IMG/VR virus record: IMGVR_UViG_3300028393_000169
Coordinates: 1 to 37,280 of that record
Source of the DNA: a virus
Length of the DNA: 37,280 nucleotides
Reading direction: 5' to 3' (one strand)
Shown here: piece after piece, positions 14,129-36,739 of the stretch
How positions within the stretch are numbered: position 1 is the stretch's first letter
Layout: each line of letters begins with the position of its first letter
Notes under the pieces: generated by a model
Databases searched by the model: none
The model's input: the letters and a program-made list of their open reading frames with translations, nothing else
Told to the model about the DNA's origin: nothing
Position numbers and translations under genes: made by a program

Positions 14129-15468
14129 ATGCTTGCTGTATTAAGTGAACCTAATGTATTTGTAGATTCCGTCAATGAAACACTTTCATCAAACAAACTT
14201 ATACTGCCTTCACTATATGCACTGCCATACAACGCTTGACTACTAGTTGTTATTGTTTCTGTAGATTCGCTTATTGTATAAACAGTTGATCCAACAGTAT
14301 AAGTTCCTGTAAATGCCCCATTATTAGGTAAATTTGCCAAAAGAATAAGTGTATTACTTGCCCCTGCACCACTTATTGTTGCAGTTCTTCCAGTTAAACC
14401 TAAATTTCCTTCTGAATCAATTGTTATTTTTTGCCAATATTTTTGATTTGGACTTGCCAATGTTGCGTCAATTTTTCTTTGCCATTGAATAGTGCCTGAA
14501 CTATTAAATTTTGCTATTATTCCTTGATAACTAGGTCCTTCTCCTGCGGCATAAACATTTCCTGAAGAATCAACAGCAAGAGAACTAAAATTTGTATTAG
14601 ACATTGATCTTTGCCACGCAATATTTCCCCCACTATCAAATTTTATAATCCCACGATAAAATGAAACATATGTATTATCGGAAGAATCTACAATAACATC
14701 TGTAAAACCAGTAAATCCTGCGTTATCTCTATATGAACGAAAATATTGAAGTGTTCCTGAACTATTATATTTTACAAGAGCACCATAATATTCACCATCA
14801 TTTTGTCTATAATACGCTACAAAAAAACTATCTCCGTTACTCTTTGTAAATAAATTATATCCAATAAAATTGTTTGAACCGGGTGCAACTATTTTTCTTT
14901 TAAATTGAATTGTTCCTGAACTATTATATTTTGCAAAAACACCATTATAAGTTGATGCGTTTGTATCTCTTGCATATCCCGCAACATATACATTGCCACT
15001 AGAATCTACTCCAACACCAAGAAGAAGAAGACCATCACCAACACCAGAGTCAATATTGCCAAGTGATCTTGACCATTGAACAACACCTGAACTATTAAAT
15101 TTTGTTGTTAAACCTGTAAAAGTATTATTATTATTTGAACGAGTACCTACAGAATACATATTATCTGAAGCATCTATTGCGGCATCATAATCAAAAGCAT
15201 TACTACTATCTGAAGGTCCTGTATAAAGTTTATTGTAAACTAGTTCTTTAGTTTTATTTATTTTAAATACAATTCCTTTTCTTCGTTCACCACTTCCACC
15301 ATATAATTGTTGACCACCTAAAACAATTAAATTACCAGACGAATCAAAAACTGCACCTTGACAAACATTATATAGATCTTGAGTTTGACTTCCAAATCTT
15401 CCAACAAAATTAGGGCTAACACTAAAACTTCTTTGGTTCATGTATACCGCTTGTAAAGCTCCACTCAT
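14125..15468 (-). CDS. Beta-propeller-like tail fibre protein
   Basis: 447 residues from the ATG at 15468, which overlaps the collagen-like fibre stop as ATGA (an upstream TTG at 15495 is not needed). It contains about six repeats with a D-S-S-G-N-x-Y-V-A-G type strand (for example VDSSGNVYVAGY, VDSSGNVYAAGE, IDSEGNLGLTGR) alternating with KFNSSGTIQWQRKI-type strands. This is the SBBP-like layout of a beta propeller with about 50-60 residues per blade. It has a serine/threonine-rich C-terminal tail. Likely exposed on the tail and involved in binding the host surface; inferred. Confidence 0.72.
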   Translation of the reverse strand: MSGALQAVYMNQRSFSVSPNFVGRFGSQTQDLYNVCQGAVFDSSGNLIVLGGQQLYGGSGERRKGIVFKINKTKELVYNKLYTGPSDSSNAFDYDAAIDASDNMYSVGTRSNNNNTFTGLTTKFNSSGVVQWSRSLGNIDSGVGDGLLLLGVGVDSSGNVYVAGYARDTNASTYNGVFAKYNSSGTIQFKRKIVAPGSNNFIGYNLFTKSNGDSFFVAYYRQNDGEYYGALVKYNSSGTLQYFRSYRDNAGFTGFTDVIVDSSDNTYVSFYRGIIKFDSGGNIAWQRSMSNTNFSSLAVDSSGNVYAAGEGPSYQGIIAKFNSSGTIQWQRKIDATLASPNQKYWQKITIDSEGNLGLTGRTATISGAGASNTLILLANLPNNGAFTGTYTVGSTVYTISESTETITTSSQALYGSAYSEGSISLFDESVSLTESTNTLGSLNTASI

Positions 15469-18400
15469 GTTAAACCACTCCCTGAAATTAACCAAGTTGT
15501 TGAAGTCATTTTTATTGCTGTTGCAGAACCATATTGAGCCAAACTTCTTGAACCTGTAGTGCCAGCAGAACTTAAATACATGGTGTCTGTAGTGATTGCA
15601 ATTGTTACCACTTGACTTGTCATGTTAATAAAAGTAATAGCAGTACCAATTGGATAGGCAACAGAACTGTTTGCAGGAATTGTAAATGTTCTAGCATTAG
15701 CGTCAGTTGATGGATGAAAAATTACCTTGCCTGTATCTTCTAAAACTGTTGTGTAAGATGTACTTTGACTGTTTACAGGAATATTTCTAAAACCAACTGC
15801 ATCCGTACCATCAACTGTGCATGAAGATAAAATTCCGCTTGATGGTGTTCCAAGAGCTGGTGTTACTAAAGTAGGGCTTGTTGCTAAAGCCACTACTGTT
15901 CCGCTTCCTGTAGTTGTGTAACTTGTTCCCCATGCTGTTCCAGTTGAATTAGCAATGCCAGCACTTGGATAAACTGTTGGACCAGTTGCACCACTATAAC
16001 CACTTATTCCTGATCCACTATATCCGCTATAACCACTAAATCCAGATGCTCCAACCGCACCACTAAATCCTGAAAATCCGCTTATTCCTGATGCCCCATT
16101 AATTCCAGAGTAGCCAGAAAAACCACTTATTCCAACTGCACCGCTAAATCCTGAATATCCGCTTATGCCAGAGAATCCAGAAAAACCTGATACTCCATTT
16201 GCACCAGAGAATCCGCTAATACCAGATGCTCCATTAATGCCAGAGAATCCAGAATAACCAGAAATACCAGAGCCAGAATATCCTGAGTAACCGGATATAC
16301 CACTTGCACCTGATATGCCAGAGAATCCGCTTATGCCAGAATAGCCAGATGTTCCAATGCCGCTAAATCCAGAATAGCCTGAGTATCCAGAATAACCAGA
16401 TATACCATTAACTAAAGCTAAAAATAATTGTTGATTATTTGTAAAGCCAGTTGTTCCTGTTCCAGAAGAAGAAACAAAAGAAACTGGGAAAGTCCAATAA
16501 CTATTAGAAGTTCCAGCATTAATATTTGTTGGTGTTCCTGATATTGTCCAAGTTTGAGAATTTGTACTTACATCTCTGTCTTGAATAGTAAAGGTTTCGC
16601 TGACTTGTAAAAGAGCCAAGAAAATATCAATATCAGTATTATCTTCAGTTAAATGACTTACATTAATTTGTGTAGCTGAAATTTGTGTTGCATTGTTCCA
16701 AAGAACATGACCATTAGTAGGTTGTCCACTAATAGCCGCATTATCAGCTTTATATAAAAAGAAACTAGATGATGCACCTTGTGCTCCAGAAAAACCTGAA
16801 ATACCACTATAACCAGAGTATCCAGAAATGCCGCTAAAACCAGATTGCCCTACTTGTCCAGAATATCCTGATATTCCAGATGCCCCAGAATATCCAGAAA
16901 TGCCGCTAAATCCAGAAATTCCTGATAATCCATTTTGCCCAGAGTAACCACTTAAACCATTTACACCTGAGTAACCAGACCATCCAGAAATACCAGATGC
17001 ACCGCTAAACCCAGAAATACCTGAGTAACCTGATAATCCATCTTGACCGGAAAAGCCACTAAATCCGCTAATGCCTGATGCACCTGATTCTCCAGAATAA
17101 CCTGATGTGCCATCAATTCCTGAGTAACCACTAAAACCTGATTCACCAGAAAAACCAGAGTATCCAGATTCACCATTTTGTCCAGAGTAACCTGAATCAC
17201 CGCTTATGCCATCTTGACCACTATAGCCTGAATAGCCTGATAAACCATCTTGACCTGAAAAACCGCTATACCCAGAATCACCGCTTATGCCATCTTGACC
17301 ACTATAGCCTGAATAGCCTGATAAACCATCTTGACCTGAAAAACCGCTATACCCAGAATCACCACTTATGCCATCTTGACCAGAATAACCACTAAAACCT
17401 GATTGACCTTGTGGAACAAATAAAGCCCAGTTTGCATTTGTGGTTGGTGGATTATCAAAAGGTGCTATAGATGCTAATGCAATCCAAGTTTGATTCGCAT
17501 AAGCAACTATTGAATTTTGAATATAAGCAACTTCAATTACCCAATTGCCTTGCCAATAAAAACCTATGCCAGAATACCCTGAGTAACCGCTTTGTCCATC
17601 TTGCCCTGAAAAACCACTTATGCCTGAATCGCCTGAAAATCCGCTAATGCCAGAATCACCTGAGTAACCTGAAATACCGGAATCTCCAGAGTAGCCTGAA
17701 TAACCACTTAATCCATCTTGACCAGAAAATCCTGAAATACCAGAATCACCACTAAAACCTGATATGCCGCTATCGCCAGAAAATCCTGAGTATCCAGATT
17801 GACCATCTTGCCCTGAATATCCAGACTGACCATCTTGCCCTGAGTAGCCTGAAAATCCTGATTCGCCTGAATAGCCACTAAATCCGCTTATGCCGCTTTC
17901 GCCAGCCGGACCTACAATTGCACCAGCATTAAACCAAACTGATCCATTCCATACATATAAATCACCATCAGCTTCAACAATATATGCATCATTAGGGCTT
18001 GCATCAGTTGGCAAATCGCCTACTGTTGGGACTGTTCCCAATAGATTAATGGATGTTCCTTGCATACCGCTATAGCCAGAAAAACCACTATAGCCACTAA
18101 TTCCTGATTCACCAGAAAATCCTGATTGCCCATCTTGACCAGAAAATCCGCTAAAACCTGATTGCCCATCTTGACCGCTATAACCGCTATAGCCACTAGT
18201 GCTATTGCCAGAATATCCTGAGTAACCAGAGTATCCGCTTGCCCCTTGTATAGATTGCCCAGAAAAGCCACTATAACCACTTATACCGCTTCCTGAGTAA
18301 CCGCTTATACCTGACTGCCCATTTTGTCCTGAAAAGCCACTATAGCCACTATAACCAGAATAGCCAGAATAGCCAGAACGACCATCCCCACCAGCACCAG

Positions 18401-18506
18401 AAAATCCACTATAGCCAGAATATCCTGATGTTCCGGCTGGACCAGCAATTCCTTTGTCTATTACAAGAGTAATTTGATTTGGGTTTTCGTAATTGATAGA
18501 TGGCAT
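15465..18506 (-). CDS. Collagen-like tail fibre with Gly-Tyr/Phe-Ser repeats
   Basis: 1013 residues. After a short head (MPSINYENPNQITLVIDKGI) come long Gly-X-Y runs in which X is mostly Y, F, I or Q and Y is mostly S (GYSGFSGQDGQSG). The runs are broken by globular inserts at about 149-205 (WNGSVWFNAG), 312-367 (a chitin-binding type 3 look: YIQNSIVAYANQTWIAL) and 579-699. A globular end from about 839 to 1013 may form the trimeric tip. Collagen-like runs in phages form trimeric rods. It lies between the tail tip/baseplate genes and the propeller protein and is the likely long fibre. Confidence 0.82.
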   Translation of the reverse strand: MPSINYENPNQITLVIDKGIAGPAGTSGYSGYSGFSGAGGDGRSGYSGYSGYSGYSGFSGQNGQSGISGYSGSGISGYSGFSGQSIQGASGYSGYSGYSGNSTSGYSGYSGQDGQSGFSGFSGQDGQSGFSGESGISGYSGFSGYSGMQGTSINLLGTVPTVGDLPTDASPNDAYIVEADGDLYVWNGSVWFNAGAIVGPAGESGISGFSGYSGESGFSGYSGQDGQSGYSGQDGQSGYSGFSGDSGISGFSGDSGISGFSGQDGLSGYSGYSGDSGISGYSGDSGISGFSGDSGISGFSGQDGQSGYSGYSGIGFYWQGNWVIEVAYIQNSIVAYANQTWIALASIAPFDNPPTTNANWALFVPQGQSGFSGYSGQDGISGDSGYSGFSGQDGLSGYSGYSGQDGISGDSGYSGFSGQDGLSGYSGYSGQDGISGDSGYSGQNGESGYSGFSGESGFSGYSGIDGTSGYSGESGASGISGFSGFSGQDGLSGYSGISGFSGASGISGWSGYSGVNGLSGYSGQNGLSGISGFSGISGYSGASGISGYSGQVGQSGFSGISGYSGYSGISGFSGAQGASSSFFLYKADNAAISGQPTNGHVLWNNATQISATQINVSHLTEDNTDIDIFLALLQVSETFTIQDRDVSTNSQTWTISGTPTNINAGTSNSYWTFPVSFVSSSGTGTTGFTNNQQLFLALVNGISGYSGYSGYSGFSGIGTSGYSGISGFSGISGASGISGYSGYSGSGISGYSGFSGINGASGISGFSGANGVSGFSGFSGISGYSGFSGAVGISGFSGYSGINGASGISGFSGFSGAVGASGFSGYSGYSGSGISGYSGATGPTVYPSAGIANSTGTAWGTSYTTTGSGTVVALATSPTLVTPALGTPSSGILSSCTVDGTDAVGFRNIPVNSQSTSYTTVLEDTGKVIFHPSTDANARTFTIPANSSVAYPIGTAITFINMTSQVVTIAITTDTMYLSSAGTTGSRSLAQYGSATAIKMTSTTWLISGSGLT
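17198..17359 (-). repeat. 81-bp tandem duplication in fibre gene
   Basis: Two identical 81-bp units (17198-17278 and 17279-17359), each encoding 27 residues of the Gly-X-Y rod, followed by the start of a third unit that differs at its fifth base or so. Identity at third codon positions points to recent slippage or unequal exchange, which keeps the reading frame and changes the rod length. Confidence 0.75.
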
Positions 18507-29587: not shown

Positions 29588-30253
29588 TTATAGCACCAAA
29601 GGTTTATAAAGTCTTAATAAGGTAGTAACCCCAAATGGAATATCATGCAATACAGCCGCATTTGAGTTACTGCGATTATTGTATAAATGAGTTAAAAGCA
29701 ATAATCCAGCTTGTTTAATAACAGGATACTGAGCTATTGGATTGGCTTTGGTCTGCCAAGTAACCACAATAGGGTTTGCTACTGTTGTGCTAATGTCATT
29801 TGGCAAAGCATTTACAACAACTCTATTTCCTGTTGGATCATAGAAATATTCTGTAGATGCTATGGTTGTTAATACTGGTGGATTATCCCCATTGTAGTAA
29901 GCAACCGAATTAATAACTGTTCCAGCCTGATTATTAAAGTTTTGGGATACTTCTGGCAGATCAAAAGCAGTCTGCATCCCCATAGAGTTGTTTGTAGCCC
30001 CATAGTAGGCTTTATAGATGATTGGGAATATGGACATACCAAGATAGTCCTCAATCGCCATACGAGTTGCCAATTCAAGCCCAGATAGATATGCATCTTG
30101 GCTCTCATCTTGGAAAAGATTAAGCTGTTGAGTAATTTCTTCTAGAGTTAGCCAAGATGTTGTTATATCTCGGCTAATCTGCTCTACCTTTTCATAGCTA
30201 TAAGGATTCCTTGGCAATCCATAATATGAGCCACTTGTAAGAGTGCTAGACAT
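29588..30253 (-). CDS. Head-tail connector, gp6-like
   Basis: 221 residues. LTLEEITQQLNLFQDESQDAYLSGLELATRMAIEDYLG is the helical part of gp6-like connectors, and the end has IKQAGLLLLTHLYNNRS and PFGVTTLLRLYKPL, the classic terminal motif. A beta-strand domain lies between them (VINSVAYYNGDNPPVLTTI). AAGG precedes the start. It follows the second capsid gene, as expected for the adaptor under the portal. Confidence 0.84.
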   Translation of the reverse strand: MSSTLTSGSYYGLPRNPYSYEKVEQISRDITTSWLTLEEITQQLNLFQDESQDAYLSGLELATRMAIEDYLGMSIFPIIYKAYYGATNNSMGMQTAFDLPEVSQNFNNQAGTVINSVAYYNGDNPPVLTTIASTEYFYDPTGNRVVVNALPNDISTTVANPIVVTWQTKANPIAQYPVIKQAGLLLLTHLYNNRSNSNAAVLHDIPFGVTTLLRLYKPLVL

Positions 30254-30261
30254 TTTTAACC

Positions 30262-31296
30262 TTAATCAAACCAGCTTAAACGAACTCCAGCATACACATC
30301 ACGAATTGTAGAAACCATACGCTTCTCAGCATATAAAGTTACAAAGCCGGGTTGTGTCTGTTCAAAACGCTTAAAAGTAAATTCTTCATTGTCTGCAATG
30401 GTTACAAACCTTGACCAATCAGCCAAATAAACTGGGAACTTACCTACACCACCTTCTACATCCATATAAGGATTTGGGCAAACGCAATGTCCAAAAATAT
30501 TACCAACTGCACTTCCAGTATCGCTACCTACTTCAAGAAATACAGGCAATCCGCTTGTGCCACCAGTTAATTCACGCAAGTTGCGAATAGTTGTTGGATG
30601 CATCATCCAGCAAGTTGTATCAAAATTCCAATATTGTGCTGGCAATGCAGATGCTAAGTTAGCAATATCGTTATAAACTAAATACTCACCAACTTGGGCT
30701 ACAGTTAAAACAGTATGAATGCCATCATCTAATGCAGAACCATTTGTACCAAAAGATGCGGCAGTTGTTGAACTCGGATAAGAATTCAAACCACGCAATC
30801 CATATTCAGCACCAGTTGTAGTGGTAATTGAACCTGATTGGTCATTATTAAGCATCATGGACAATGCTTCTTGTTGCAAGAATTCTAAAGCTAAATCCAT
30901 TACTACTGATTCTTCTAAAGCATTAATATCAGATAGAACAGCAGTACGAATTGGAATTTGTGCTGAAATAACTTTTACTGGAATTTGCCAGTAAGCAGTA
31001 TCTTCGCCCGGTGTTCCCACATTGGGAGTAAAATCGTAACCCCAAGGATTATCAGGGTTAGTTGCATTACCAGTTTTGGCTACAAATGCTTCATCTGAGC
31101 CAATGGTTGTAATCTGTCTTGCATAAGTGCGAATAGGATTAGCCATACGCAAAGATGCAAAAGAATCATCATAAATTGTACGACCACCAATCCCTGATCC
31201 AGAACCAGTAAGTGCAGATGCTTCATTAAGTGATACTTTTGATTCGCCTTCAACTAGGGCTTTTTTAATGGCTTCATAAATCAGAGTGGTGTTCAT
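30262..31296 (-). CDS. Second HK97-fold capsid protein (no delta domain)
   Basis: 344 residues, clearly homologous to the larger capsid protein upstream: GSGSGIGGRTIYD, AKTGNATNPDNPWGY, RTAVLSDINALEESVVMD, LNNDQ, and RFEQTQPGFVTLYAEKRM all have counterparts. It lacks the N-terminal coiled coil of about 85 residues (GGRT at 37-40 here against 122-125 there). A role as a minor capsid protein, for example at vertices, or as a neck-proximal protein is inferred. An intrinsic terminator precedes it, so its expression should be lower. Confidence 0.82.
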   Translation of the reverse strand: MNTTLIYEAIKKALVEGESKVSLNEASALTGSGSGIGGRTIYDDSFASLRMANPIRTYARQITTIGSDEAFVAKTGNATNPDNPWGYDFTPNVGTPGEDTAYWQIPVKVISAQIPIRTAVLSDINALEESVVMDLALEFLQQEALSMMLNNDQSGSITTTTGAEYGLRGLNSYPSSTTAASFGTNGSALDDGIHTVLTVAQVGEYLVYNDIANLASALPAQYWNFDTTCWMMHPTTIRNLRELTGGTSGLPVFLEVGSDTGSAVGNIFGHCVCPNPYMDVEGGVGKFPVYLADWSRFVTIADNEEFTFKRFEQTQPGFVTLYAEKRMVSTIRDVYAGVRLSWFD

Positions 31297-31315
31297 ATTT
31301 CAATCCAAATAAGTT

Positions 31316-31346
31316 AAAAAAAAGGTGGGGGATTTCTCCCCCAGCC
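31316..31346 (-). terminator. Intrinsic terminator between the two capsid genes
   Basis: On the minus strand GG-C-TGGGGG, a 6-nt AGAAAT loop, then CCCCCA-CC with one bulged base, followed by eight T. This is the best rho-independent terminator in the window and starts right after the stop of the first capsid gene. Transcription past it must be by read-through. Confidence 0.87.
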
Positions 31347-31347
31347 T

Positions 31348-32691
31348 TTAATTAGCAGTATGAGTGCTACGATATGCTACCAACGCAAAAGGATCGACAA
31401 CCGAGCTTGCTAGACGCTTTTCGCCATAGAAAGTTATGAAACCGGGTTGTGTCTGATCGTATCTACGCAATACCATATTTAAACGATCAACAATTGCATG
31501 ACCCTTTTGGAAGTCACCAAAGAACATTGGATACAAATCAGCCGTAGGGCTAGAACCAATATCATTTGGACCATCGCAATACTTATTAACAACAACATCA
31601 AAACCAAGCAACTGACCAACGATGCCATCTGTACGAGCAAGACCATCAATGTAGATTGGGCGTTTTTGGTCATCAACTAAACCACGAATAGCCTGTAACT
31701 GTAGTGGATTAATCAAGAACTTAGCATTCTCAGTCCAGTATTGGTTAGGCAAGCTGTAGATAAAGTTCACCACATCTTTGTAAGTGATGTTATTTGTTGT
31801 TGTGCTTGTGCCATTGGTTGTGATTTGGTCATAAGTAGTGATAGTGGACAAACCATTGCTTGTTGATACACCACTTGAACCAAATTGGGCTGGATGAACA
31901 GTACCACCAGTATAGGTGCTTGAATAAGCATACTGATTTAAGCCACGCAAACCATTTGTTCCACCATAAGTATTTGGTGAATCAGTTTGGTCATTGTTTA
32001 GGATCATGGACTGAGCTTCTACTTGACCAAATTCAGCCATCATGTCTGAAATGATGTTGCCTTCTAAACCATCAATATCATCAAGGGTTGCTGTACGAAC
32101 AGGGAACTCACAGTTCAAATCTTTTAACACCAATTGCCAGATGTTTGTGTTTTGAGTTGTTGGAGCACCATTGTTCTGAATTGCATAACCCCATTGAGCA
32201 CCAGCATTGCCAGTTTTTGCTCGGAATTGATAAGCAGAACCATCAGTAGCTACAGAACGGGAAACACCACGCAATGGGTTTGTTTGACGCAAAGTAACAA
32301 ACACAGGATCGTAACCAGTACGACCACCGACATTGTAACCAGAACCATAGCCAGCCGGATTACCTAACTGTGAACCATCTTCCTTCATGTATGCATCATA
32401 CTGATCTACTGATTCAAACAATTTGATTTCTTTTTCTACTTTGTTACCAGCTTTGTAGAAATCACGAATCTGCTCACGAACAGAACGATTAAGTTCTTGT
32501 GAAATAGATTTATATGTTTTAACAATTGCTGGAGCTTGTATTTCAGAAATGCGAGCTTCTAAATTTGCAACTTTTTCAGCAAATTCAGCTTTAGCGGCTT
32601 CAACAGTAGTATTAACTTCAGCTTTTATTTCTTCAATCTTAGCTACAGATGCGGCTTCGATTGTGTCTAGTTTTTCAATAACTTCTTTCAT
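31348..32691 (-). CDS. Major capsid protein, HK97 fold with delta domain
   Basis: 447 residues. Residues 1-60 are a charged coiled coil (IEEIKAEVNTTVEAAKAEFAEKVANLEARI), the delta/scaffold domain usually removed by the prohead protease. From about 115 the HK97 fold begins: GSGYNVGGRTGYDP, LRQTNPLRG, RAKTGNAG, WQLVLKDLNCEFPVRTATLDDIDG, and the end RYDQTQPGFITFYGEKRL. AAAGGA precedes the start. It follows the protease by 10 bp and is followed by a strong terminator, consistent with high expression of this subunit. Confidence 0.9.
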   Translation of the reverse strand: MKEVIEKLDTIEAASVAKIEEIKAEVNTTVEAAKAEFAEKVANLEARISEIQAPAIVKTYKSISQELNRSVREQIRDFYKAGNKVEKEIKLFESVDQYDAYMKEDGSQLGNPAGYGSGYNVGGRTGYDPVFVTLRQTNPLRGVSRSVATDGSAYQFRAKTGNAGAQWGYAIQNNGAPTTQNTNIWQLVLKDLNCEFPVRTATLDDIDGLEGNIISDMMAEFGQVEAQSMILNNDQTDSPNTYGGTNGLRGLNQYAYSSTYTGGTVHPAQFGSSGVSTSNGLSTITTYDQITTNGTSTTTNNITYKDVVNFIYSLPNQYWTENAKFLINPLQLQAIRGLVDDQKRPIYIDGLARTDGIVGQLLGFDVVVNKYCDGPNDIGSSPTADLYPMFFGDFQKGHAIVDRLNMVLRRYDQTQPGFITFYGEKRLASSVVDPFALVAYRSTHTAN

Positions 32692-32701
32692 GATAATTCC
32701 T

Positions 32702-33502
32702 TTATTTAATGCGATTAGATAATGCTTTCAACAATTCTCTTTCCTGTAAGGCTTTTAGAATTGCATCAGCTTCATTTACCACCGCTTCTAGCTCACCTAG
32801 TTGTGGGGCTACCTCAGTAATTACTTCTGGTTCAACATCACGCTGTTCCAAAACTTTCTTGAGGATTGAAGATGCGGTGGTCGCATCTTTTCGAGAAAGC
32901 CCAGCATCACGCAAGGATTTTTCGATTATTCTTGGGTTTGCATTTCCTTCTGCATCAAAATATTCTAGCTTCATTACTTCTGCGGCTGGATTATTAGGAT
33001 ACATAACTACAGAAATTTCACGCAAACCACCTTTAGTAATTTGGAAATAACCTTCATCTGCATCAATGCCTAATTGCAATGGATTGCCAGCTTCATCAAC
33101 CATACAGGCTTCATCAGCATAAGCACCAACAGAAACACCACCAAATAAGTTGGGAGATTCTTTTAATACTGAATAAATGTCTGATCCACCTACTGTGTTC
33201 ATGAATAAACGACCTTTTGCAGTCATTCCACCTTCATCAAACATTACTTCATCCCATTGTCCAACTGGCATACCCATATCATTATGGTTTAGGAACATAG
33301 GCATAGGTTTGCCAGCTTGATTAAATTCATCAGCCCATTGTGCAAAACCTTCAGGTTGATAATTGAACTTTCTACCATCAGCACCTTCTCTAGCACCCCA
33401 AGTAGTAGCTCTTGCTTCTATTTTGCCGCTAGGATTTTGTGCTTCGTCTGCGGATTGTCCTAACTGGACCTTTGCTTCGCAAACTAGAATTAGATTTTTC
33501 AT
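32702..33502 (-). CDS. Prohead maturation protease
   Basis: 266 residues of the HK97/herpes-assemblin type. Key blocks: PMPMFLNHNDMGMPVGQW (catalytic H73), GGMTAKGRLF, SPNLFGGVSVGAYAD (S124 region), GGLREISVVMYPNNPAA. The last 90 residues (ASSILKKVLEQRDVEPEV, ADAILKALQERELLKAL) form a charged helical tail that may act as scaffold. It cuts the delta domain of the capsid protein in the prohead. GGGG lies about 7 nt before the ATG. Confidence 0.88.
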   Translation of the reverse strand: MKNLILVCEAKVQLGQSADEAQNPSGKIEARATTWGAREGADGRKFNYQPEGFAQWADEFNQAGKPMPMFLNHNDMGMPVGQWDEVMFDEGGMTAKGRLFMNTVGGSDIYSVLKESPNLFGGVSVGAYADEACMVDEAGNPLQLGIDADEGYFQITKGGLREISVVMYPNNPAAEVMKLEYFDAEGNANPRIIEKSLRDAGLSRKDATTASSILKKVLEQRDVEPEVITEVAPQLGELEAVVNEADAILKALQERELLKALSNRIK

Positions 33503-33635
33503 TTATAGCCCCATTAGAAATAGCTTGGTTATTATCTTGTATTTTAGGGGATTTTGCATCTATTATCGGAAGTTTAACATCACTTGTTTTTATTTGCAAA
33601 GATAACAAAGAATAAAGTTTGTCTAAAATTTTCAT
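33429..33635 (-). CDS. Possible small protein between portal and protease
   Basis: A 68-residue frame whose ATG overlaps the portal stop (TAATG). The first 44 codons lie in the gap before the protease; the rest runs through the protease start in another frame and ends in a basic tail (RTIRRRSTKS). The N-terminal half (MKILDKLYSLLSLQIKTSDV) is plausible for a small gene. It could be real and coupled to the portal, or simply translate the leader of the protease. Confidence 0.4.
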   Translation of the reverse strand: MKILDKLYSLLSLQIKTSDVKLPIIDAKSPKIQDNNQAISNGAINEKSNSSLRSKGPVRTIRRRSTKS

Positions 33636-35032
33636 TATTTCCCTATATTTATTTTATTAGTTTGGTTTCCACCACCACCACCGGTATCTTGTGGTGAAGA
33701 ACCAGCAATATTATCTTGTGGGTTTGATTTACTGCTTAATTCATCTGCCCCATCAACTTTGGGTATATTTAGATATTCTCTTGCTTCATTAGGTGTCATA
33801 ATGCCACCAGATACACCAGCAGTTACAAAGTTCATTTGATCTAATGGAGCACCTTTTAAGAAATCCTTAGTATCAAAGCGAATACAAAGATTTGGGTATC
33901 CTTTTAACAAATGCTGATTTAGCTTTTGCTCAATATTAATAATCATAGGGTACATACAACCCTTATGGAATTCATCTAATAATGTTTGAGTATTATTAAA
34001 CTTGCCTTCTGATATACCTAACATTTGTGGCGGTACACCAAACAAAGCACAGATTCGCTTCATGGTTTGTATCTTTAAATTGGCGGCATCTGCATCTTGC
34101 AAGGTAAGCATCTTGACTGTTTCAAATGTCATGCCTTGGTCTAATAGCATTCCTTGACCCGGTTTAGATAAATCGGTGTCCCTAGAGCCAACCATGCTTG
34201 CCCATGCTTCTTTTAATCTACCAGCAATTTCTTTGTACTTAGCATCAGGAATAACTTGATCTGTTCTAAACAAACCAGATGGTTTTGCACCATTTAGCAT
34301 GACATAGTTGGCATAAATATCAATATCTTGATCTAATGCCACTAATTCGGTAGCTAAAATGCCTTTATTAAAACCAGCTACACCTTGCCATGCCGCTTCG
34401 CTAATATGCATAACTTGATGGGCTGATAATGGTTCATCTTTGTTGAATCCATAGGTAGGTGTCGATAATCTATAGCTAGGATACCTAGTTGGAGTAAGCT
34501 GAGTAGTCATTAAAGTAGCATCTAGGTTATACATCTCTAGTGGAGTAGCTACTGCATCTTGTTGATCTTTTCTCCACCAAAGGGTAAAACACTCACCAGC
34601 TAAATCTTGCCACATTGACCATTGATACCAAAATTCATATTGACTTTGAAAATTATTGGGGGATTGCAATAAAGACAATACTTGCTTGGCTTTAGTTTTA
34701 TCCCTAGTGCCTACTTTGTCTGATTTAATGGCATTAACAAATACTCCTTTGTCATCCTTAGACATTATTTCAATTGGTAACTGAGCTAATGCTCTAGCTT
34801 TTACACCTACACAAGACATAACTGTACTATTTCGGCTAAGAACAGACATATCCAATGGTCTGCCAGCCGCAGTAGTGCTTGCTGTGGTTACATAAAGTAA
34901 TTGCTGGGAAACTGTTTGCCTACCAGCTTGCCCTTGATAAATGACATTATTACCAAGTTGGGTCTGCCCAAATAGGGTATTTGATTCTTTTTCTAGTGGT
35001 TTTTTTCTACTGAAAATATCTAAAATACCCAT
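33635..35032 (-). CDS. Portal protein, HK97 family
   Basis: 465 residues. SRNSTVMSCVGVKARALAQLPIEI, YEFWYQWSMWQDLAGECFTLWWR, LSAHQVMHISEA and ICALFGVPPQMLGISEGKFNNTQTLLDEF match the HK97 portal family. The C-terminus is a flexible glycine/asparagine-rich tail, normal for portal proteins facing the head interior. AAAGGA precedes the start. It follows the large terminase and precedes the protease in standard order. Twelve copies form the DNA channel at one vertex. Confidence 0.92.
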   Translation of the reverse strand: MGILDIFSRKKPLEKESNTLFGQTQLGNNVIYQGQAGRQTVSQQLLYVTTASTTAAGRPLDMSVLSRNSTVMSCVGVKARALAQLPIEIMSKDDKGVFVNAIKSDKVGTRDKTKAKQVLSLLQSPNNFQSQYEFWYQWSMWQDLAGECFTLWWRKDQQDAVATPLEMYNLDATLMTTQLTPTRYPSYRLSTPTYGFNKDEPLSAHQVMHISEAAWQGVAGFNKGILATELVALDQDIDIYANYVMLNGAKPSGLFRTDQVIPDAKYKEIAGRLKEAWASMVGSRDTDLSKPGQGMLLDQGMTFETVKMLTLQDADAANLKIQTMKRICALFGVPPQMLGISEGKFNNTQTLLDEFHKGCMYPMIINIEQKLNQHLLKGYPNLCIRFDTKDFLKGAPLDQMNFVTAGVSGGIMTPNEAREYLNIPKVDGADELSSKSNPQDNIAGSSPQDTGGGGGNQTNKINIGK

Positions 35033-35071: not shown

Positions 35072-36739
35072 TCAGAAACTTCTAAATCCAAAGCTATTAG
35101 ATACAAATGGATTATCTAAACTGCAATGTGAAGCAATAATTAATGCAATGATTCCATCAACTTTTGCAGACTTATCTGCTTCATTTTTTCGAACTTTGAT
35201 ATTTCCATTTACATCTTCATATACTTCAGAGTTGCCTAATTGCCATCCTATGAATGGATTTCCATCATGTTTAATCTGCTGATTGAGAATTAGCTTTTCC
35301 ACATATTTAGATGGATTAGATAATACTGCCATACCCTGACCCACTTTTTTAACTGGTATTCCGGCATCATATAATCGAGCCACAAGGGATGCGGCATTGT
35401 AGGCATCGTATCCAACTTCTTTGACATTGTATTTTTCGCATTGCTGTTTAATGTAATCCGATATTTCCCTATCATCCATAACATTGCCTTCAGTTAGCTT
35501 TAAGATGCCAGAATCAATGGCAACCCTAAAGATGTCCTGATAATGCTTGGGAATTAGCTCATATCCAGCTTCAGGCAAAAAGAACTTCCAATGGGCATGG
35601 TAATCTAGCTCCCCATATCGCTTTAGGGTACAAACTGCATTTAAGTCCCTAGTTGCCGCTAAGTCAAACCCAATAAAAACTGCTTCTGGTTCTTTATCTG
35701 TAATCGGTTGGATACATTCGAGTTTATCCCAATTAGCTCTATCTATCCATGCACTATTGGCACTAACAAATATGTTAAGGGTTTTGCATAAAAATTCATT
35801 AAGTGCGGCTGGTTTTGATTTAGCTTCTTCTGCCCTTTGTTGGATGGCTTCTTCAAAAATGCTAATGCCATGCATAGGATTGGCTTTTGCCCAAGTTTTG
35901 GGATCTCGCCAATCATCTTGTGGATCAAGAGAATAAAGTAATCCAAACCACTTTGGGTTATCGGTGGCTTCCCCATTTAACATTGATTCTAGCATGGACA
36001 TATCTTCATAAAACTTGGTGTCCTTGCTAAAGCTGGCAGTTGTAATATAGATTCGCAAAGGGTTTTGCCGGGCAACCATACCAGAATGCAAAACCTCAAT
36101 TGAGTTCCTATCGACAATGGCAGATGCTTCATCCACGATTACACAGGATGGTGCTTTACCATCTCCTGTCTTTTTGGTGTCCCTAGACAATGCTTTAAAC
36201 ATTGTTTGAGAATCGCCAAACTTCCCAATCTGATATTTGCTGACAGAGAATAGGCTGGCTATATCTTTTGGTCCAGTTTCAATAAATCCTTTGGCGGCAT
36301 CAAAAACAATAGAAGCCTGTTCCCGGTTGGTTGCCAAAGTAAAGACTTCTGCACCAGCTTCACCACAAGCTAGTTCATAAAGTGCAATGATGGCAGTAAG
36401 GGTTGATTTACCAGCTTTTCTTGGGATGTACAAAATGACATCTGTAACCATCCTTTTGTTGTGATCCTTCTTTGCCCTAAAGCCATAGATGGCACAAATA
36501 AAGAAAATCTGGAATGGTTCTAAAACTACATTTTCCCCAGCTTGATGCCCTTTGGTATGCTTTAGTAAGGATGCAAAACCTAAGACATGGTTTGGGTAAT
36601 CTGGATCAAATTCCCATTCCCATTCTTTGTTTTCAAAAAAATTCAAGAAACGCTGGCAAGCAAGCCTAACATTTCTACAAACTTCTATTTCCCCTTTAGC
36701 TACCTGATTGGCATACTGAATGCCATCTTGGTAATTCAT
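35072..36739 (-). CDS. Terminase large subunit
   Basis: 555 residues. ATPase: Walker A PRKAGKS (106-112) and Walker B CVIVDEAS (E204). Nuclease: FIGFDLAATRDLNA (D359), VGYDAYNAA (D445) and KVDGIIALI (D528), the RNase H-like acidic triad. This is the Terminase_1/HK97-like type. It pumps DNA into proheads and cuts concatemers. It starts one base after the small terminase stop with AAAGGA as ribosome binding site. Confidence 0.94.
   Translation of the reverse strand: MNYQDGIQYANQVAKGEIEVCRNVRLACQRFLNFFENKEWEWEFDPDYPNHVLGFASLLKHTKGHQAGENVVLEPFQIFFICAIYGFRAKKDHNKRMVTDVILYIPRKAGKSTLTAIIALYELACGEAGAEVFTLATNREQASIVFDAAKGFIETGPKDIASLFSVSKYQIGKFGDSQTMFKALSRDTKKTGDGKAPSCVIVDEASAIVDRNSIEVLHSGMVARQNPLRIYITTASFSKDTKFYEDMSMLESMLNGEATDNPKWFGLLYSLDPQDDWRDPKTWAKANPMHGISIFEEAIQQRAEEAKSKPAALNEFLCKTLNIFVSANSAWIDRANWDKLECIQPITDKEPEAVFIGFDLAATRDLNAVCTLKRYGELDYHAHWKFFLPEAGYELIPKHYQDIFRVAIDSGILKLTEGNVMDDREISDYIKQQCEKYNVKEVGYDAYNAASLVARLYDAGIPVKKVGQGMAVLSNPSKYVEKLILNQQIKHDGNPFIGWQLGNSEVYEDVNGNIKVRKNEADKSAKVDGIIALIIASHCSLDNPFVSNSFGFRSF

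Follow-up and report, generated by a model that had tools for sequence, protein, structure and literature searches.

We report that a 37,280-nucleotide stretch of viral DNA (positions 1 to 37,280 of IMG/VR record IMGVR_UViG_3300028393_000169; hereafter the window) carries two tandem paralogous genes, both encoding HK97-type capsid proteins, which we term A and B. Both lie on the minus strand. A (31348–32691; 447 residues) is a major capsid protein with a long N-terminal delta-like domain, and B (30262–31296; 344 residues) is a capsid paralogue with a truncated prodomain and a putative minor or vertex capsomer. We favor, with a probability of roughly 0.57, the reading that A is the major lattice protein and that B makes up minor capsomers, the pentameric vertices being the most likely.

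Two intact paralogues with a predicted HK97 fold

The open reading frames of A and B are each intact, with an ATG start and a stop codon, and are separated by 51 nucleotides, in agreement with the original prediction of two homologous capsid genes in tandem. By BLASTP, A and B are 36% identical and 53% similar over 329 residues (199 bits, E = 1e-64). Both match PF05065 (A, 1.4e-32, 113.7 bits; B, 2.9e-17, 63.4 bits; curated cut-off 24.2) and TIGR01554, major_cap_HK97 (A, 1.6e-33, 116.4 bits; B, 4.7e-20, 72.1 bits; cut-off 27.5), the latter profile aligning to A over positions 1–383 of its 385, and both also match PHROG 10. At about 60 alignment positions the same residue is at least 90% conserved in the A family and the B family alike, and the sequence blocks first quoted as common to the two proteins are real. 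At 12 positions the two families are fixed for different residues, and we therefore reject the view that B is a mere truncated A.

Structure prediction had been proposed as a check on both proteins. AlphaFold2 models built from 43 A and 31 B sequences agree on a common fold, predicted to be that of HK97. The mean predicted local distance difference test (pLDDT) score is 62 for the A and B models, and blocks in the A- and P-domains mostly score 70–88. The best structural match in the PDB is the RcGTA capsid, Rcc01687, for both A (Z = 19.5) and B (Z = 20.4), and RcGTA likewise ranks first for both proteins in profile searches of PDB sequences. Further structural matches are the capsids of cf-PICI EcCI2, Mycofy1, D3 and HK97, with the HK97 entries at Z of about 14–17. 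RcGTA, unlike the A–B pair, has a single capsid protein.

Obligate pairing and an old duplication

Related phages were searched for the gene pair, as had also been suggested, in seven scans, six of them of viral contigs and one of bacterial genomes, with loci ranked by likeness to the A or B of this clade. We found a complete A followed by B in 299 loci (some contigs counted more than once) and recovered 195 distinct complete A–B protein pairs, numbers that describe the clade and from which, given the ranking, the rarity of such pairs outside it cannot be read. A split gene or a reading or sequencing error is excluded by the 195 distinct intact pairs. Pairing is obligate over this large clade: where the contig was long enough, we found no true case of A without B or of B without A, and the instances of A without an adjacent B come from the ends of contigs, from copies with a frameshift, from a single contig that has a 345-nucleotide gap and from three outgroups. 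Two of the outgroups, Bcep176 and VW-6S, have a single capsid gene and the same order of terminase small subunit (TerS), terminase large subunit (TerL), portal, protease, capsid and connector, without B. The third, a Desulfofustis phage, has one homologue in that position.

Maximum-likelihood analysis of 67 proteins (32 A, 32 B and 3 from outgroups) set all B proteins apart from the rest with a support of 99/100; the separating branch measures 1.38 changes per column, and the root may fall within A or next to it. The single deep split between A and B indicates that the duplication is older than the known diversity of the clade, and a recent or lineage-specific duplication is rejected on the same ground. 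Both proteins are under purifying selection, with a median ratio of nonsynonymous to synonymous substitution rates (dN/dS) of 0.127 for A and 0.137 for B. B is the more diverged of the two, with a mean identity between species of 61% versus 74% for A.

The closest isolate is the Methylophilaceae phage P19250A (KX815270), which has the same gene pair and gene order as the window and a TerL 73% identical to that of the window (35072–36739, minus strand). Its gene 5 is A (59% identical; annotated 'gene transfer agent capsid protein') and its gene 6 is B (53% identical; annotated 'hypothetical protein'). We found no functional data on the P19250A pair. The OM43 phage Venkman (MT375522), described as close to P19250A (PMC8163748), was considered as a carrier of the pair and rejected, having one capsid gene, a separate scaffold gene and no match to A or B in tblastn. 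The Venkman structural module, which holds the scaffold gene and tail tube A/B, is without a homologue of either protein. A close relative of A was also seen on a 39-kb contig (JAHEYD010000010.1) binned in a metagenome-assembled genome named for the archaeon Candidatus Nitrosotalea; the contig is probably a mis-binned one from a phage.

A conserved hairpin separates A from B

Directly past the A stop codon, in the spacer ahead of B, is a terminator-like hairpin (31326–31343, minus strand). It consists of a 7-bp stem and a GAAA loop (TGGGGGA-GAAA-TCCCCCA) and is followed by CCTTTTTTTT, the whole spanning 31343–31316. With a fold z of −3.5, it is the best terminator-like site in the 23–37.3 kb part of the window. 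We counted G+C-rich stems of at least 6 pairs in 162 distinct A–B spacers and in shuffled controls, and found a stem in 98% of the spacers versus 15% of the shuffled sequences, and a stem with a T tract in 90% versus 4%. The hairpin is present in 0% of the regions before A. In the region after B, a stem occurs in 26% versus 10% of shuffled sequences, and a stem with a T tract in 2%, equal to shuffled. The spacer hairpins have 99 different 5′ stem arms, hence it is the pairing that has been kept and not the sequence.

A hairpin also follows the sole capsid gene in the three outgroups, where the next nine bases contain 6, 4 and 2 T residues; the T tract is weaker in the Desulfofustis phage and VW-6S than in Bcep176. 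These outgroup hairpins are strong and are found immediately past the major capsid gene at loci L291 (5613–5672), L292 (5391–5450) and L293 (5580–5639). A hairpin after the capsid gene may serve HK97-type head operons in general as a signal for stoichiometry. Of 142 pairs, 129 show stronger pairing to the anti-Shine–Dalgarno sequence at the A ribosome site than at the B site (Wilcoxon p = 3e-22). The hairpin after A, its counterpart in the outgroups and the stronger A ribosome site together suggest that A has inherited both the position and the signal of a capsid gene with abundant product, with B among the genes that follow the hairpin. A is thus probably the protein that makes up most of the shell. 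Judged from these signals, the hairpin would end transcription and thereby make B scarce, and this together with the weaker B ribosome site points to a low stoichiometry of B.

N-terminal architecture and additions found only in B

A has about 110 residues ahead of the N-arm, and B has about 25–30. In A, this predicted delta domain or prodomain (approximately residues 1–110; 32362–32691, minus strand) lies within the N-terminal part of TIGR01554, and the AlphaFold2 secondary structure, of low to middling pLDDT, suggests a long coiled-coil helix (residues 2–50) and a further helix (residues 63–80). The N-terminus of B (approximately residues 1–30; 31207–31296, minus strand) is short and helix-like, with an LNEASALTGSG junction that is conserved in two alignments, one of 31 and one of 74 B proteins. 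The junction is common to both families (consensus KEASxLTGSGxGVGGRT in A and NLxEASALTGSGSGxGGR in B), and its GGRT is at residue 122 in A versus 37 in B, exactly as originally described. The accompanying claim that A alone has a delta domain captures a real difference between the two proteins and goes too far for B, which keeps a short prodomain and the junction motif. B, like A, may be cut by the protease, if the shared junction holds the protease site.

A is 431–477 residues long across pairs, and no A carries an N-terminal module or an E-loop insert, both of which occur in B. An N-terminal module of about 100 residues is present on 13 distinct B proteins. It belongs to PHROG 2859 (function not assigned) and reads MPKPT...RIAWALWGGDAGKSWA (for example, locus L012, 5962–6264), and a Pfam search with the module from these long B proteins gave no named family. 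In 15 distinct B proteins, an E-loop insert of about 70 residues follows the AKTGN block; it has a VGQTISGTGVTAGTYI-type sequence (for example, locus L010, 4291–5529, residues 80–153) and resembles tail-fibre PHROGs. B is without either addition in 167 of the 195 distinct pairs.

In S-CBS1 and CRP-811, the N-terminal module recurs close to the N-terminus of the long protein that bears the annotation 'major capsid protein'. In phiPsal1 it lies within the prohead protease, and in Vibrio phage 1.247 it is part of a coil protein encoded upstream of the capsid. Its presence in proteins of protease, capsid and scaffold position suggests that the PHROG 2859-type module acts within the prohead. By analogy with the HK97 fold, the N-terminal modules would face the inside of the shell and the E-loop inserts the outside. 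The PHROG 2859 module also occurs in a 'DNA-binding protein', and its hosts include unrelated phages and a haloarchaeal virus.

Neighboring genes of the head module

Upstream of A are the genes for TerS, TerL, the portal protein (33635–35032, minus strand; PF04860, 3e-58) and an S78 prohead protease (32702–33502, minus strand; PF04586, 1e-6; PHROG 80, head maturation protease), whose expected substrates are A and perhaps B. A head–tail connector gene (29588–30253, minus strand; PHROG 40, head–tail adaptor, 1e-9; PF05135) begins 8 nucleotides past B, and the gap between B and the connector gene has a median of 8 nucleotides across the pairs. A 1013-residue tail protein elsewhere in the window (15465–18506) has many matches to collagen-like and tail-fibre PHROGs.

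Discussion

We propose that abundant A would build the hexameric lattice, and that B, as the scarcer duplicate, would co-assemble with A at defined positions, of which the eleven five-fold vertices without the portal are the likeliest. A T=7 head would then hold about 55 copies of B versus about 360 of A. The late transcript would run in the order TerL–portal–protease–A, the hairpin past A would terminate or protect most messages and so leave A in excess, and read-through would yield B, translated from its weaker ribosome site, together with the connector genes. B pentamers would contact A hexamers via the shared N-arm, the base of the E-loop and the P-domain. The delta domain of A would drive prohead assembly and then be removed by the S78 protease, and B, with only a stub of a prodomain, would depend on A for assembly. 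In this scheme we infer the presence of B in the virion, its low copy number and vertex location, the T number and the cleavage. The original prediction had offered a special vertex or minor component, or else a mixed lattice; the conserved hairpin after A and the weaker B ribosome site favor the minor component, and the vertex is the location suggested by analogy.

Several considerations weigh against B as a vertex capsomer. The models of A and B, with their mean pLDDT of 62, are of middling confidence. Low expression of B is read from sequence signals, and such hairpins can serve as stabilizers of 3′ ends instead of terminators. Pentamers of HK97-type phages normally come from the same protein as the hexamers, so B would not be needed in principle. 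Finally, normalized A–B identity by domain (A-domain, 0.56; second part of the P-domain, 0.54; spine, 0.74) gave no clear signal of an inter-capsomer surface, and we did not use it as evidence on capsomer interfaces.

Since the whole predicted HK97 fold and the N-arm and E-loop motifs are retained in both proteins, A and B might share the same capsomers in variable or random composition, like the two-component Family 2B encapsulin of Streptomyces lydicus. The encapsulin pair (9bje, 9bix) is among the structural matches, and irregular tiling has been reported for it (PMC12407261). However, the hairpin and the ribosome sites point to unequal amounts of A and B, and the B-only inserts of 70–100 residues and the truncated delta domain suggest distinct positions. 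Mixed capsomers fit the expression signals less well than a division into A hexamers and B pentamers, and we consider such a lattice unlikely. About equally unlikely is a component of the portal vertex or neck, or a very-low-copy factor for head size or shape, expressed with the connector genes: B does lie past the hairpin, co-oriented with the connector gene and 8 nucleotides from it, but it has a complete predicted HK97 fold and conserved lattice motifs, and we know of no neck protein with that fold.

It is a little less probable again that B is an assembly factor, whether an internal or transient scaffold present in the procapsid and absent from the virion or a carrier of the N-terminal module. 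Some B modules do recur in protease, capsid or scaffold-position proteins (those of S-CBS1, CRP-811, phiPsal1 and Vibrio 1.247), but the 167 pairs with a plain B argue against this role, as do the shell-specific residues that B retains, the N-arm included. Ordinary redundancy, in which B is a recent or decaying duplicate without a role of its own, or a split or misassembled gene, has nothing in its favor beyond paralogy itself; it is refuted by the conserved intact pairs and, given the deep split, the obligate pairing and a dN/dS of about 0.14, we assign it hardly any probability.

Neither the HK97 fold nor the concept of a paralogue at the vertex is new, and division of labor is documented mainly for T4, with the SaPIbov5 satellite next nearest. 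In T4, gp23 makes the lattice, and eleven vertices carry pentamers of gp24 (PMC3012670); as here, two HK97-fold paralogues are found in one phage. However, T4 is a myovirus, large and prolate, that has a scaffolding core, whereas the present phage is a 37-kb one with HK97/gene transfer agent (GTA)-type (PF05065) capsid proteins; here, unlike in T4, B is nearly without a prodomain and the duplication arose within the PF05065 capsid family. In SaPIbov5, Ccm forms pentamers and the phi12 capsid protein forms hexamers; Ccm is 24% identical to its partner, and its delta domain has 87 versus 128 residues (PMC8569155). Ccm, like B, thus has the shorter delta domain of the two partners, but it belongs to a satellite that hijacks a phage, whereas A and B adjoin in the phage's own head operon. 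To our knowledge, Family 2B encapsulin has no prohead, portal or protease. Its two HK97-fold shell proteins in S. lydicus, Enc1 and Enc2, co-assemble (PMC12407261). The 'two capsid proteins' of Planktothrix phage PaV-LD (PMC10343443) were rejected as a precedent, as ORF071R is annotated as a head maturation protease and is no paralogue. In a 2025 paper, T4 is said to be the sole virus that has two HK97-fold proteins in separate roles, and we found no obligate tandem capsid paralogues in small HK97/GTA-type phages or siphophages in the literature searched, most subscription journals being outside its reach.

If B is a vertex protein, it would represent an independent origin of such a protein in a widespread and much simpler phage type. 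More tentatively, and with slightly less than even confidence, we suggest that a large lineage of small HK97/GTA-type phages independently evolved a vertex protein by tandem duplication, with expression controlled by a hairpin and with B as a swappable platform for E-loop inserts on the outside and N-terminal modules on the inside. Single-capsid relatives with the same gene order provide a baseline for comparison, and it becomes testable why a phage stops making pentamers from its one capsid protein. A gene class currently filed as 'hypothetical protein' would be a second capsid protein.
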